Source: a virus
IMG/VR virus record: IMGVR_UViG_3300037041_000717
Coordinates: 1 to 39,289 of that record
DNA: 39,289 bases
Reading direction: 5' to 3' (one strand)
Made by a program: the position numbers and the translations under genes. Every line of letters begins with the position of its first letter. The first letter of the stretch is position 1. This document shows, piece after piece, positions 13,504-24,328 of the stretch. The notes under the pieces were generated by a model. The model was given only the letters and a program-made list of their open reading frames with translations, ran no database searches and was not told where the DNA came from.

Positions 13504-14082
13504 ATGCTACTCGCAACTGACCTGCTCAAGGCCGCCCTTGTGTGCGCTTCCAATGAAGAAAGCCGTTACTATCTCCGCGGCGTCCACCTGACCACGTCCG
13601 GTCACATGGTGACCACGGACGGGCACCGGATGTTTGTCGCGCGCTTGGCTGAACGGCCGACGGCCGACGTGATCGTACCCTATGACGCGGTTGCCGCGGC
13701 GCTCAAGATGGCGGGCGCGCGCTGTAAAGAGATCGAAATTGACCTGGCCGCCAATCGGATTGGTCAGATACAGTTCACGCCGGTGGATGGCACGTTCCCC
13801 GATTGGCGCCGCGTGGTGCCGACGGGCGAGGAAACACCCTCGACCAAGCCAGAGCTGAACGACGGGCCGGAGCATGTCCATTTCAATCACGCCTATATCG
13901 GCGACTTTGCAAAGATGGGTAAGCTGCTAGGCGGCCCGTCCATGCTGCACCCGGTCAGCGCAAGCCATCCCGCCCTCGTGACGTTTGGCGAGCGCGCCGA
14001 TTGTTTCGGCGTCCTCATACCCATGCGCCGCACGGTTGACCGTTCCGCCGTGCTCACACGCAACATTGTGATGGCGGGCTGA
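13504..14082 (+). CDS. DNA polymerase sliding clamp-like protein (DnaN-related)
   Basis: The protein has 192 residues. The segment RYYLRGVHLTTSGHMVTTDG then HRMFVARL matches the beta-clamp signature in which a strand is followed by ATDGHRL. GTFPDWRRVVP is also a beta-clamp pattern (FPDYxxxIP), and a C-terminal strand VLIPMRR resembles the clamp end. The bacterial clamp has three such domains in about 370 residues; this protein has room for fewer. It may form a higher oligomer, act as a clamp decoy or bind the phage polymerase. The start ATG 13504 follows AAAGGA. Confidence 0.6.
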   Translation: MLLATDLLKAALVCASNEESRYYLRGVHLTTSGHMVTTDGHRMFVARLAERPTADVIVPYDAVAAALKMAGARCKEIEIDLAANRIGQIQFTPVDGTFPDWRRVVPTGEETPSTKPELNDGPEHVHFNHAYIGDFAKMGKLLGGPSMLHPVSASHPALVTFGERADCFGVLIPMRRTVDRSAVLTRNIVMAG

Positions 14083-20901: not shown

Positions 20902-22026
20902 CTAGACAAGTTTACCAAGGGCAGCAGCAAGATGCTTGCCGACCTGCAACGACGCCGGGCGCGGATCATCCGCGGTTGCCAGCGTGTCACCCGATGAGAC
21001 GGCGGTGATGAGCCCTTCCGGCATGGCGATCTTGTGCTTCTTCAGCACCTTTTCGATTTGCGCCGGGCTCTTCAACTCCGTCAATTCCGTAGCACTACAC
21101 CCTGCTTCGGTGAGTGCTGTCAATGCCGTCTGTTCATTCACCCACTGGCGGGTGGCCCGCTTCGGCACCAGCTTCCAGCCCGGCACCTCAACACCCGCCT
21201 CCAGCAGTTCGACCGCCATCTCGCGGGCGTCCCTGATCCAGCCTTCCAGCAGGTCGATGCTGGCCAAGGCCTCCGTCAGCCTGCCCACGTTGACCGCCTT
21301 GATGTTCTCGCGCTTGGCGCGCTCGACGGCACCGTTGACCAGCGGGCAGATCGACTTGGCAGCGCACCAGCGGCAGTGGTCGCCAGAGGCCAGCGGGGCG
21401 TCCGGCTGCTGGGCCGTGCGCACCGCCATGATCAGTTCCGCCTCGAAGCGGCGCACCCGGTCGAGGTCCGTCACCCAGCGGCGCACATGCGGCGGCTGCA
21501 CGATGATCACCTCGACCGTCTCGACCCCCTCGAAGGCCCAGCGTGTCGCCTCGGTGCGAAGGGCGGCAGCCGTGTAGAAGAGCGCCTGCGGGTTCTCTTC
21601 AGCCTCGACAGGCACGCCATCACCAAACTTCCAGTCCAGCAGAATGCCGCGATTGCCAATCCGGCCAACAAGATCGGCGGAACCAAAAACACCAGGGAGA
21701 GCGTCACCAAAGCCCACCACCTGCTCGACCGCGTATTCCAACTGTCCATCAGGGTCGATCTCATCCAGCACCGCCAACGCGGGCAACAGCTTGCGCTCCA
21801 GCCGGTCCTCCGTCAACTCGATGCCGTTGTGCATCGTGCCGAGGAAATCTTCCGGCCGCTTGTTCATCTCCAGAATGGTGGCGATAACGTTGTGCAGCAG
21901 CGTGCCCTCGTCGGCGTAGCTGCTGGACGGCTTGGGCGGCACCTGCTGGACGAGCGCGACGCTGCCGGGGCAGTTGATCACGCGCTTGGCGGTCGAGCCG
22001 CCGACGATGGTTGAGTGTTGAGCCAT
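20902..22026 (-). CDS. Cas4/RecB-like PD-(D/E)XK nuclease (DUF2800)
   Basis: The protein has 374 residues. The nuclease core shows DEGTLLH (39-45), FGSADLVG (Asp118), ILLDWKFG (Asp131, Lys133) and NPQALFY (Gln147, Tyr151), the usual order of RecB-type catalytic residues. Cys19 plus Cys218-x2-Cys221-x5-Cys227 matches the four-Cys iron-sulphur arrangement of Cas4 and AddB nucleases. DUF2800 proteins accompany phage PolA operons. It probably processes DNA ends for recombination-dependent replication or degrades host DNA. No CRISPR array or other cas gene is present. Confidence 0.85.
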   Translation of the reverse strand: MAQHSTIVGGSTAKRVINCPGSVALVQQVPPKPSSSYADEGTLLHNVIATILEMNKRPEDFLGTMHNGIELTEDRLERKLLPALAVLDEIDPDGQLEYAVEQVVGFGDALPGVFGSADLVGRIGNRGILLDWKFGDGVPVEAEENPQALFYTAAALRTEATRWAFEGVETVEVIIVQPPHVRRWVTDLDRVRRFEAELIMAVRTAQQPDAPLASGDHCRWCAAKSICPLVNGAVERAKRENIKAVNVGRLTEALASIDLLEGWIRDAREMAVELLEAGVEVPGWKLVPKRATRQWVNEQTALTALTEAGCSATELTELKSPAQIEKVLKKHKIAMPEGLITAVSSGDTLATADDPRPASLQVGKHLAAALGKLV

Positions 22027-22385
22027 TATTCATCCCCCTTGAGCTTAAGACCAAACGTCAACAAAAGATCCCGGTATTCTTGTACCGTGGCTAGCCCCAC
22101 ATTATGGTGGCGCAAGATTTCCTTCGCCGAGAGTTTGACTAACTCGCCGACGGTATCAATACCCAAATAGCTCATGGCGTCGTTCCGCGCGCGGGTGCTG
22201 AGATTAACCCAACGCAAACGGACGCAGTCTATGTTTACGGGCACCGTGGCAGGCGTAGCGCCCGCTGCGGGGGAGATTTTTTGACTGCGCTTCATTAGTG
22301 CTAAACGGCGCTCGGCTTGCAGTTCTTTAACCCGCGCTTTTGCCTCTGCAATCTGCAAATCAAGGTGGTAGAGATGTTCGTCCAC
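22026..22385 (-). CDS. Coiled-coil protein with an RNA polymerase alpha C-terminal domain-like module
   Basis: The chosen start is GTG 22385 behind GAGAGGAGACGACA, which matches the leader of other early genes; a GTG at 22418 lacks one. The protein has 119 residues. Residues 2-30 form a helix (HLYHLDLQIAEAKARVKELQ). Residues about 57-116 align with bacterial alpha-CTD. RWVNLSTRARNDAMSYLGI fits the segment around E. coli Arg265 and Asn268 (here Arg65 and Asn68). HHNVGLATV fits the NLGKKSL loop with Asn294 and Gly296 kept (Asn95, Gly97). It is first in the replication operon. It may bind UP-element-like DNA or displace host alpha-CTD. Confidence 0.7.
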   Translation of the reverse strand: MDEHLYHLDLQIAEAKARVKELQAERRLALMKRSQKISPAAGATPATVPVNIDCVRLRWVNLSTRARNDAMSYLGIDTVGELVKLSAKEILRHHNVGLATVQEYRDLLLTFGLKLKGDE

Positions 22386-22466
22386 TGTCGTCTCCTCTCG
22401 TGTGTTGAGCCCCAGCACTACAGAATTCTTGTTGACCTGTCAATGATTGTTTGATAGGTGATGGTC
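22386..22466. promoter_or_regulatory. Divergent control region with TTGAC-CT-GTCAA dyad
   Basis: The 12-bp dyad TTGACCTGTCAA (22432-22443) supplies a consensus -35 TTGACA on the minus strand and TTGACC on the plus strand. The -10 matches 17 bases away are weak (TAGTGC minus, TAGGTG plus). The minus and plus operons both start here, so an activator or repressor at the dyad could switch both. Confidence 0.4.
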
Positions 22467-22745
22467 ATGCGCGAAAAAGAAATCGAGACGTACCTCTGCA
22501 AGACCGTCGAGCGGATCGGCGGCCAAGCGTTCAAATTCACCTCGCCCATGAACCGCGGCGTCGCTGACCGGGTGGTGTGCCTGCCCAACGGCACGGTGTG
22601 GTTCATTGAGGTGAAGGCCCCCGACGGCAAGCTGACGGCGTTGCAGGAGCGTTTCGGCAGGCGCATGGCGGACCTCAAACAGAACTATGCAGTGCTCTAC
22701 ACGAAGGAGGAAGTGGACGAATGGTTTCGTACTATAACGAGATAG
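22467..22745 (+). CDS. VRR-NUC domain nuclease
   Basis: The start is taken as ATG 22467; ATG 22461 and GTG 22458 are alternatives. The 92 residues show the VRR-NUC pattern: KFTSPMNRGVADRVVCLPNG with the catalytic Asp in GVADR, then FIEVKAP with Glu and Lys, then a Gln-rich helix LTALQERF. This is a Holliday junction or flap-type nuclease fold common in phages. It is the first gene of the right early operon and overlaps the methyltransferase gene by 25 bases. A role in recombination or host DNA breakdown is inferred. Confidence 0.85.
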   Translation: MREKEIETYLCKTVERIGGQAFKFTSPMNRGVADRVVCLPNGTVWFIEVKAPDGKLTALQERFGRRMADLKQNYAVLYTKEEVDEWFRTITR

Positions 22746-24328
22746 ACCCCTACGCCGCGCAGTGGCTGCGCAACCTGATCGCCAATAAACTGATCGCTGA
22801 CGGAGATGTCGATGAAAGATCCATTCGGGACGTGGCTGCTGCGGACCTCCGCAGTTACACCCAGTGCCACTTCTTCGCCGGTATCGGCGTCTGGTCCTAC
22901 GCCCTCCGTCTTGCCGGATGGCCCGACGACCGGCCCGTCTGGACCGGCTCCTGCCCATGCCAGCCTTTCAGCGCCGCCGGACAAGGCAAGGGGTTCGACG
23001 ACGACCGGCACCTCTGGCCTGCATGGTTCCGACTTATCAACGCATGCAGACCGCCCGTTATCTTCGGGGAACAAGTCGCTAGCGCCGACGTCGTCGGCAA
23101 GGCTTCGAAATCGAGAGGCCGACAGGCGGTACGGGATAGCCTATCGGATGCGGCACAGGGCGCGCGACCTGGTGCGCCACGCCGAGCATCGGGCGAACCG
23201 GAAAGAGATTTCCTTCGATCTGTGGGATCACCTTCCGGCGCTGCAGGCGAGGATCGACGCGGGCAAGTGCGAGGTGACTGGTCTGCCGCTGAATTTGAAA
23301 GGCGGCAGGACATGGGACAGTCCGTCTCTAGATCGCATCGACCCTCAGAGCGGCTACGTCTACTCGAATGTGCGGGTGGTCTGTCATGGCGTGAACAGCG
23401 CGATGGGGGATTGGGGCGAGCAGAAACTGGTCGAGATGGCGAAAGCTATCTTGGACATGCGGAGGCAGAAATCGAACGCCTTCTCGCGGGCTTTGGGCGA
23501 GAGGCTGAAGGCGAGAATACAGGACCGTGGCTCGACGCTGTATTCAATGACTTGGAACGAATTGGCTACGCCGCAGGGGCGCACGTTCTTCCGGCTTGCG
23601 GCATCGGCGCCCCGCACATCCGCCAGCGCCTCTGGTTCGTCGGAGAAAGGTTGGACGACACCGCAAGCGCACGACACGACCGGGCGCTCGCTGGGTCAGA
23701 AGGAGAAGCACGGAACGAAGCACGGCTGCGCTTGTCTGGTGAGGGACGCGGATCTGACGGCTTGGCCGACGCCCAACGCCAACGACTGGAAGGGGGCATA
23801 CCAGGACGTGGAGAAGAACTTGGCGCGAACCGCGGCGGGGCATCAGGTGACAATGCAAGACGCAGCGAGACTGGCGGGCTGGCCGACGCCTGCAACGACG
23901 GACCACAAGGGCGGGTACATGGGGGGGCGCATGAGGAACGGCAAGCTCTCGACGGATCGGCTGGACGTGACGGCGCAGATTGCGGGCTGGAACACGCCAG
24001 CAGCCTCGGACGGGAACGGGGGCAAGCGCCCGCACCCGGACACGACGATGACGGGTCAGCACCCGGAGGGGCGGAAGGTGAACATGGGGCTGGCCTCGCA
24101 GGTTCACATCGGCTTCATCAAGACGGAGCCCGCCCGACTGACGGCCACTGGCGAGATGCTGACTGGCTCTTCTGCCGGGATGGAAAGTGGCGGCCAGTTG
24201 AACCCGGCACATTCCCGCTGGCTCATGGGGCTCCCGCCCGAGTGGGACGCCTGCGCGCCTACGGCAATGCCATCGTCCCGCAAGTCGCGGCAGAAGTGAT
24301 CGGAGCGTACCTCGATGCCCGCCCTTAG
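22721..24328 (+). CDS. DNA cytosine-C5 methyltransferase (frame A of an overprinted locus)
   Basis: The protein has 535 residues; ATG 22721 follows GGAGG. Motif I is FFAGIG (51-56), motif IV CPCQPFS with catalytic Cys80, motif VI GEQVA (116-120), motif VIII HIRQRLWFV (299-307). The C-terminus has motif X-like VGRLRAYGNAIVPQ. Two unusual parts are visible. Residues about 126-268 are a charged, low-complexity insertion. Residues 310-475 are a hypervariable region with repeated GLADA or GLEHAS segments, probably the target-recognition part. Both parts are also read in frame B (22812-24299). The enzyme would methylate phage DNA against host restriction. Confidence 0.85.
   Translation: MVSYYNEIDPYAAQWLRNLIANKLIADGDVDERSIRDVAAADLRSYTQCHFFAGIGVWSYALRLAGWPDDRPVWTGSCPCQPFSAAGQGKGFDDDRHLWPAWFRLINACRPPVIFGEQVASADVVGKASKSRGRQAVRDSLSDAAQGARPGAPRRASGEPERDFLRSVGSPSGAAGEDRRGQVRGDWSAAEFERRQDMGQSVSRSHRPSERLRLLECAGGLSWREQRDGGLGRAETGRDGESYLGHAEAEIERLLAGFGREAEGENTGPWLDAVFNDLERIGYAAGAHVLPACGIGAPHIRQRLWFVGERLDDTASARHDRALAGSEGEARNEARLRLSGEGRGSDGLADAQRQRLEGGIPGRGEELGANRGGASGDNARRSETGGLADACNDGPQGRVHGGAHEERQALDGSAGRDGADCGLEHASSLGRERGQAPAPGHDDDGSAPGGAEGEHGAGLAGSHRLHQDGARPTDGHWRDADWLFCRDGKWRPVEPGTFPLAHGAPARVGRLRAYGNAIVPQVAAEVIGAYLDARP
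22812..24299 (+). CDS. Overprinted protein with HNH-like domain and WxTP repeats (frame B)
   Basis: A 495-residue frame lies inside the methyltransferase gene, shifted by +1. ATG 22812 has GGAG six bases upstream (22802-22805). Residues about 100-215 resemble an HNH endonuclease: GKCEVTGLPLNL, then SPSLDRIDPQSGYVYSN, then VCHGVNSAMGDWGE. The C-terminal half has four repeats of the form [GA]WxTPxxxD (GWTTPQAHD, AWPTPNAND, GWPTPATTD, GWNTPAASD) and ends GQLNPAHSRWLMGLPPEWDA before a basic tail. I recall similar proteins beside phage Dcm genes, usually called hypothetical. The HNH domain makes translation of this frame likely. Confidence 0.65.
   Translation: MKDPFGTWLLRTSAVTPSATSSPVSASGPTPSVLPDGPTTGPSGPAPAHASLSAPPDKARGSTTTGTSGLHGSDLSTHADRPLSSGNKSLAPTSSARLRNREADRRYGIAYRMRHRARDLVRHAEHRANRKEISFDLWDHLPALQARIDAGKCEVTGLPLNLKGGRTWDSPSLDRIDPQSGYVYSNVRVVCHGVNSAMGDWGEQKLVEMAKAILDMRRQKSNAFSRALGERLKARIQDRGSTLYSMTWNELATPQGRTFFRLAASAPRTSASASGSSEKGWTTPQAHDTTGRSLGQKEKHGTKHGCACLVRDADLTAWPTPNANDWKGAYQDVEKNLARTAAGHQVTMQDAARLAGWPTPATTDHKGGYMGGRMRNGKLSTDRLDVTAQIAGWNTPAASDGNGGKRPHPDTTMTGQHPEGRKVNMGLASQVHIGFIKTEPARLTATGEMLTGSSAGMESGGQLNPAHSRWLMGLPPEWDACAPTAMPSSRKSRQK

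Follow-up and report, generated by a model that had tools for sequence, protein, structure and literature searches.

The first gene of the replication operon in a viral contig encodes a free-standing homologue of the C-terminal domain of the RNA polymerase alpha subunit (alpha-CTD), carried as an optional cassette. The window analysed here is the whole stretch of 39,289 nucleotides of the IMG/VR virus contig IMGVR_UViG_3300037041_000717. The encoded protein keeps the core residues by which the alpha-CTD of E. coli contacts DNA, and the acidic surface that faces sigma is replaced. The reading we favour, with a probability of about 0.38, is that the protein would act as a dimeric competitor for the DNA sites of the host alpha-CTD.

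The gene and its operon

The coordinates 22026-22385 given by the original prediction, which named no strand, are correct, and the gene lies on the minus strand; the plus-strand frame over the same interval is interrupted by stops. The placement of the gene at the head of the replication operon holds within the window. It is followed by genes for a DUF2800 exonuclease, a nucleotidyltransferase-like protein, DNA polymerase A and a primase/helicase, and its TAA stop shares bases with the exonuclease ATG. Divergent from the operon, a VRR-NUC nuclease gene is read from the same intergenic region. Coat, portal, terminase and tail proteins of P22-like and T7-like kinds are encoded in the rest of the window. 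The features discussed below are collected in Table 1.

Table 1. Positions of the gene, its parts and its surroundings in the window
Feature	Position	Strand	Remarks
Alpha-CTD-like coding sequence (predicted coiled coil, linker, alpha-CTD-like domain)	22385..22026	minus	119 aa, GTG start
Shine-Dalgarno AGGAG	22396-22392	minus	6 nt 5' of GTG; position shared with relatives
Predicted long helix, residues 3-35	22281..22379	minus	AlphaFold helix and heptads
Disordered linker, residues 36-48 (13 aa)	22242..22280	minus	pLDDT < 50
Alpha-CTD-like domain, residues 50-117	22035..22238	minus	VIA-align and Pfam
Arg65 (E. coli alpha Arg265)	22191..22193	minus	structural alignment and row comparison
Asn68 (E. 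coli alpha Asn268)	22182..22184	minus	structural alignment and row comparison
Asn95-Val96-Gly97 (E. coli Asn294-Leu295-Gly296)	22095..22103	minus	structural alignment and row comparison
DUF2800 / PD-(D/E)XK exonuclease, next gene	20902..22026	minus	374 aa; empty-site marker in relatives
Palindrome TTGACAGGTCAA	22432..22443		same in relatives with and without the alpha-CTD-like gene
AT-rich ATCAAACAATCA, possible UP-like site	22444..22455	minus	5' of the -35-like box; similar among relatives

Two further observations concern other genes of the window. The C5 cytosine methyltransferase gene (22721-24328, plus strand) has about 594 bp extra as compared with Burkholderia phage BcepC6B. Within it, an HNH-like motif (CEVTGLPL..LDRIDP..GYVYSNV) is encoded in a frame other than that of the methyltransferase, with both frames open, and the stretch looks like a homing-type insertion. 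A 192-aa ORF (13504-14082, plus strand) has matches in two families, one of RusA-like resolvases and one of sliding clamps (DNA_pol3_beta_2 / processivity factor).

Homology to the alpha-CTD

The Pfam family RNA_pol_A_CTD (PF03118) matches residues 60-108 with 29.4 bits and an E value of 6.5e-7, above its curated cut-off of 23.8 bits. It is the sole Pfam match of the protein, and all four family members scanned match it as well. A profile of five alleles, built without any cellular sequence, found solved alpha-CTDs in the PDB at E ~1e-12, so that the homology is well beyond chance. In a single-sequence phmmer search of the PDB, every match except the last and weakest was an alpha subunit. The AlphaFold model, computed from a five-row alignment, has a mean pLDDT of 77.7, with about 80-90 in the alpha-CTD-like domain, whose helices span residues 64-74, 79-83, 87-91 and 98-110. 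Superposition with VIA-align on the B. subtilis alpha-CTD (1z3e_B) gave an rmsd of 1.4 Å over 67 aa and a Z score of 11.6. On residues 250-316 of E. coli alpha the value was 1.6 Å, with model residues 50-117 aligned and one residue inserted after Asn68. The best Foldseek matches of the model are alpha subunits throughout. Residues ~50-117 are thus a true homologue of the alpha-CTD, and the fold itself is as good as certain. The original prediction had called for this superposition; it matches, and the fold is not an unrelated helix-hairpin-helix one. As had also been claimed, nothing is present of the rest of alpha. The 119 residues contain no alpha-NTD (the assembly domain), and in the NCBIfam scan the RpoA models cover residues ~49-118 only and stay far under their cut-offs.

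The same domain gave weak matches to the BREX type 2 kinase PglW (PADLOC E 2.8e-4; NCBIfam E 0.004), which has a domain structurally similar to the alpha-CTD (PMC12839542). The phage protein could then be a counter-defence factor, a decoy of that domain in PglW or in similar defence proteins. We consider this very improbable, since the PglW matches are explained by the shared domain and fall short of those to RpoA, and nothing ties the phage to a BREX host.

DNA-contact residues and protein-contact surfaces

Structural alignment confirms the residue equivalents proposed earlier, with R65, N68, N95 and G97 at the positions of E. coli R265, N268, N294 and G296. The position of Lys298 had been said to differ, and it holds Ala (A99); the second peripheral DNA contact, S299, is changed to T100. 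The allele L023 retains both Lys298 and Ser299. These two residues vary among members of the RNA_pol_A_CTD domain, and the domain family does not require them. In the core, N268, N294 and G296 are kept in 8/8 phage alpha-CTD rows and R265 in 7/8, the exception being the L090/L091 allele with Tyr at this position. The phage proteins compared are only 28-38% identical to E. coli alpha, and at an overall identity of 28% a match at all four core positions would arise by chance with a probability of about 0.005. The conservation of the core may be partly structural; folding may account for the retention of N268, N294 and G296, and their presence is therefore no proof of DNA binding.

The surfaces that contact proteins are different. 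The acidic positions 259 and 261, through which E. coli alpha contacts sigma region 4, are W59 and N61 in the window protein, and both are acidic in 25/25 properly aligned RpoA rows. These rows come from a comparison of 28 from proteobacterial genomes, of which two off-target pieces (L125 and L136) and one protein that is not RpoA (L110) were not counted. The determinant at 287 that serves CRP has also been lost. The protein appears to have kept its DNA side and lost the side facing polymerase and activators, with the reservation that these determinants were defined in E. coli and may not be those of the host.

The N-terminal helix and the linker

The short coiled coil described in the original prediction is supported by a predicted long helix with a heptad pattern. 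The a and d positions are occupied by L5, L8, I12, A15, V19, L22, R26 and A29. In the alleles tested these positions hold Ile, Leu, Val or Ala, save for one core position with a conserved Arg, and the heptad score against shuffled sequences gave p 0.003-0.03 for four alleles. The helix likely forms a parallel dimer coiled coil, and we hold dimerisation through it to be probable. In the dimer of cellular alpha, the linker that carries each CTD is 13 residues or longer (PMC7552054). A dimer helix, a 13-residue linker and a CTD would echo this outer layout of alpha with a different dimer module.

An optional cassette with apparently mosaic alleles

The exonuclease was used to search IMG/VR, which gave 80 loci, and the family alignment then gave further carriers; a single-sequence IMG/VR search with the alpha-CTD-like protein of the window had no match. 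Eleven contigs, the window included, carry the gene in five alleles, and the other four alleles are 31-49% identical to that of the window. Among the 26 closest exonuclease loci the gene is found in 4, an unrelated 80-aa ORF in 2 and nothing in 20. The distance from the palindrome to the exonuclease start is 40-47 bases in the empty loci and 290-407 in the others. In the DNA alignment the cassette fills precisely the interval from the ribosome-binding site to the exonuclease ATG, and the flanks are nearly identical. The loci L021 and L023 encode the same exonuclease protein, and of the two L023 alone has the alpha-CTD-like gene; the carriers are scattered over several places on the exonuclease tree. 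Whereas the exonuclease has a GC content of 64% in the window and 64-67% in relatives, that of the alpha-CTD-like gene is 53% and 46-49%, respectively. Relatives of the exonuclease occur in metagenome bins whose labels include Betaproteobacteria and Rhodoferax. A search of 84,980 genomes of bacteria and archaea with the family alignment gave no match, and PHROGs holds no family for the protein.

Because near-identical relatives do without it, the gene is an optional cassette and no core part of the replication operon. It has no promoter of its own and uses the putative operon promoter common to gene-free relatives; no terminator-like site lies downstream, with one weak match within the gene. 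Since its own promoter and terminator are absent, the gene is not a classical moron, and in view of its optional presence, precise borders and deviating GC content we call it an accessory cassette. As a separate observation, the promoter-proximal slot of L008 (4759-4998, plus strand), and also of L009, is filled by the unrelated 80-aa low-GC ORF, which has a phrog_2201-like C-terminus.

The distribution bears on a possible accessory role in replication or recombination, in which a helix-hairpin-helix DNA-binding dimer would help the exonuclease or the polymerase to grip DNA and would have no part in transcription. The alpha-CTD belongs to the wider helix-hairpin-helix class of DNA binders, and the gene heads the replication operon with its stop overlapping the start of the exonuclease. 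Such a role is rather unlikely, however, given how many close relatives have the exonuclease and lack the gene. Moreover, identity between the exonucleases of carriers and non-carriers reaches 100%, and no co-adaptation is visible.

The alleles themselves appear to be mosaic. In L083 and L084 the CTD halves are nearly the same (98% identity in protein and 99% in DNA) and the N-terminal helices are 74% identical, whereas L023 and L090 share the helix (87%) and not the CTD (38%). The single-sequence model of L090 was poor (pLDDT 63) and was excluded. Because these two pairs share opposite halves, it seems that the N- and C-terminal halves are swapped or have separate evolutionary histories, as judged from few sequences. 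An apparently swapped module, and a CTD half that varies strongly between alleles with the fold kept, would be expected of a protein decoy whose partner varies. Such a decoy would mimic the host alpha-CTD as a partner and titrate activators, anti-phage factors or enzymes acting on the alpha-CTD, not DNA. We regard it as improbable, as the 287 determinant is lost and the DNA-contact core is kept in most alleles.

The promoter-proximal region

The case for an operon promoter is one of conservation, and the promoter scan of the divergent region called nothing. Read on the minus strand, TTGACAGGTCAA offers a good -35-like box (22443-22438), a weak -10-like hexamer TAGTGC lies at 22420-22415, and the candidate UP-like stretch ATCAAACAATCA is directly upstream. 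These elements could serve a recruiter, a small activator that would bind phage promoter DNA 5' of the -35 box and aid the host RNA polymerase through surfaces other than those of E. coli alpha, directed at sigma, host alpha or another subunit. The alpha-CTD fold and the DNA-contact core speak for it. A search of the window for a T7-type RNA polymerase was negative, which is weak evidence as the control genomes likewise gave nothing, and the host polymerase probably transcribes the phage. We nevertheless hold recruitment to be unlikely. The loss of the acidic 259/261 surface argues against its simple form, and the promoter is equally conserved in gene-free relatives, so that the operon does not need the alpha-CTD-like protein. 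The original prediction of a dimeric, DNA-binding alpha-CTD without the rest of alpha stands in its fold, its contact core, its probable dimerising helix and its lack of other alpha parts; simple recruitment, one of the outcomes it named, is disfavoured by W59 and N61.

A dedicated target site for the protein was not found; the palindrome is no less conserved in relatives that lack the gene. The idea that TTGACAGGTCAA is an operator through which the protein regulates its own expression is not supported, as every close relative has the palindrome, with or without the gene. It occurs once in the window, about the frequency expected by chance with one mismatch allowed. Lying between divergent operons, it could also be a pair of back-to-back -35 boxes or an operator.

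Relation to known proteins

Phage proteins with an alpha-CTD domain are already in public records, among them those of Bacillus phage Goe8, Microbacterium phage Mazun and gut phages. We found no paper on stand-alone phage alpha-CTD proteins in the openly licensed literature. What is new here is the form with coiled coil, linker and CTD, the cassette behaviour and the mosaic alleles. The window protein resembles the alpha-CTD of RpoA (PF03118) in fold, detectable sequence homology, the four core DNA-contact residues and a similar linker length. It differs in having a predicted coiled coil in place of the alpha-NTD, in the replaced Lys298 and Ser299, in the lost 259/261 and 287 determinants, and in the one-residue insertion after Asn68.

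The Goe8 protein QDP42789.1 ('RNA polymerase subunit alpha', 210 aa) likewise has a C-terminal alpha-CTD with R265, N268, N294 and G296. It differs in its own N-terminal region of ~145 aa, which shows no alpha-NTD similarity in the NCBIfam scan, in coming from the Herelleviridae and in a CTD nearer to cellular RpoA. Mazun gp26 and its relatives ('DNA binding protein', 141 aa) are also small, with a C-terminal alpha-CTD and the four core residues, whereas their N-terminus is unrelated in sequence, has no evident coiled coil and stands in another genome context. Their function is given by annotation, and we know of no functional test of gp26. NCBIfam NF005841 (PRK07758, a 95-aa 'hypothetical protein') is a small-protein model that matches the alpha-CTD-like domain at E 8e-7, but the window protein is far under its membership cut-off (29 vs 115 bits) and the coiled coil is not covered.

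Two other proteins have an alpha-CTD or a similar domain. The gut phage MT835636 (L092; 3401-4399, plus strand) encodes a protein of 332 aa in which the N-terminus is excisionase/MerR-like, the middle has a weak sigma-like match and an alpha-CTD domain is present. A Rhodoferax metagenome-assembled genome (L110, 1318-1716) encodes a small stand-alone alpha-CTD-like protein of 132 aa with Tyr at the N268 position, adjoining a Cro-like ORF.

Discussion

How could an alpha-CTD without polymerase serve the phage? In the competitor reading, the protein would be a free-standing alpha-CTD with two domains held by the N-terminal coiled-coil dimer on flexible linkers. Judged by gene position, it would probably be produced early, from the conserved promoter ahead of the replication operon. 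We think it fairly likely that the protein binds DNA, and the two domains would do so in AT-rich minor grooves via Arg65, Asn68, Asn95 and Gly97, in the manner of host alpha. Lacking the acidic surface that contacts sigma, the protein would occupy UP-element-like sites and give the polymerase no help. Host transcription that depends on the alpha-CTD would be lowered, or phage promoters would be reshaped, in favour of the phage. A low-GC optional gene in a promoter-proximal slot that is elsewhere empty or holds an unrelated ORF is as would be expected of host-directed early genes. Against competition stand the lost Lys298 contact and the L090/L091 allele with its Tyr in place of the core Arg.

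Phage action on the alpha-CTD has precedents. T4 Alt and ModA modify Arg265 (PMC2988021), and LUZ19 Rac leads to alpha being cleaved in its linker (PMC7552054). A precedent of another kind is T4 MotB, an early DNA-binding protein that T4 can dispense with but that improves fitness (PMC6070864). The proposed end effect is shared with Alt/ModA and Rac, namely that the function of the host alpha-CTD at promoters is altered or lost. Whereas those proteins are enzymes, ADP-ribosylating host alpha in the case of Alt/ModA and acting as an acetyltransferase in that of Rac, the window protein would be a non-enzymatic look-alike. In its widest form, the phage would have rebuilt the outer architecture of alpha without polymerase, as a swappable early cassette that rivals host alpha at UP elements genome-wide, with the CTD swapped between alleles to match hosts; this we offer as possible, if somewhat doubtful.

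If the competitor reading is true, these phages would have a non-enzymatic route to alpha-CTD sites, as against the known modification or cleavage. A free dimeric alpha-CTD that occupies alpha-CTD DNA sites would be a natural tool to turn down UP-element-dependent transcription. The pairs of loci with and without the gene, with their near-identical neighbours, make its effect directly testable.
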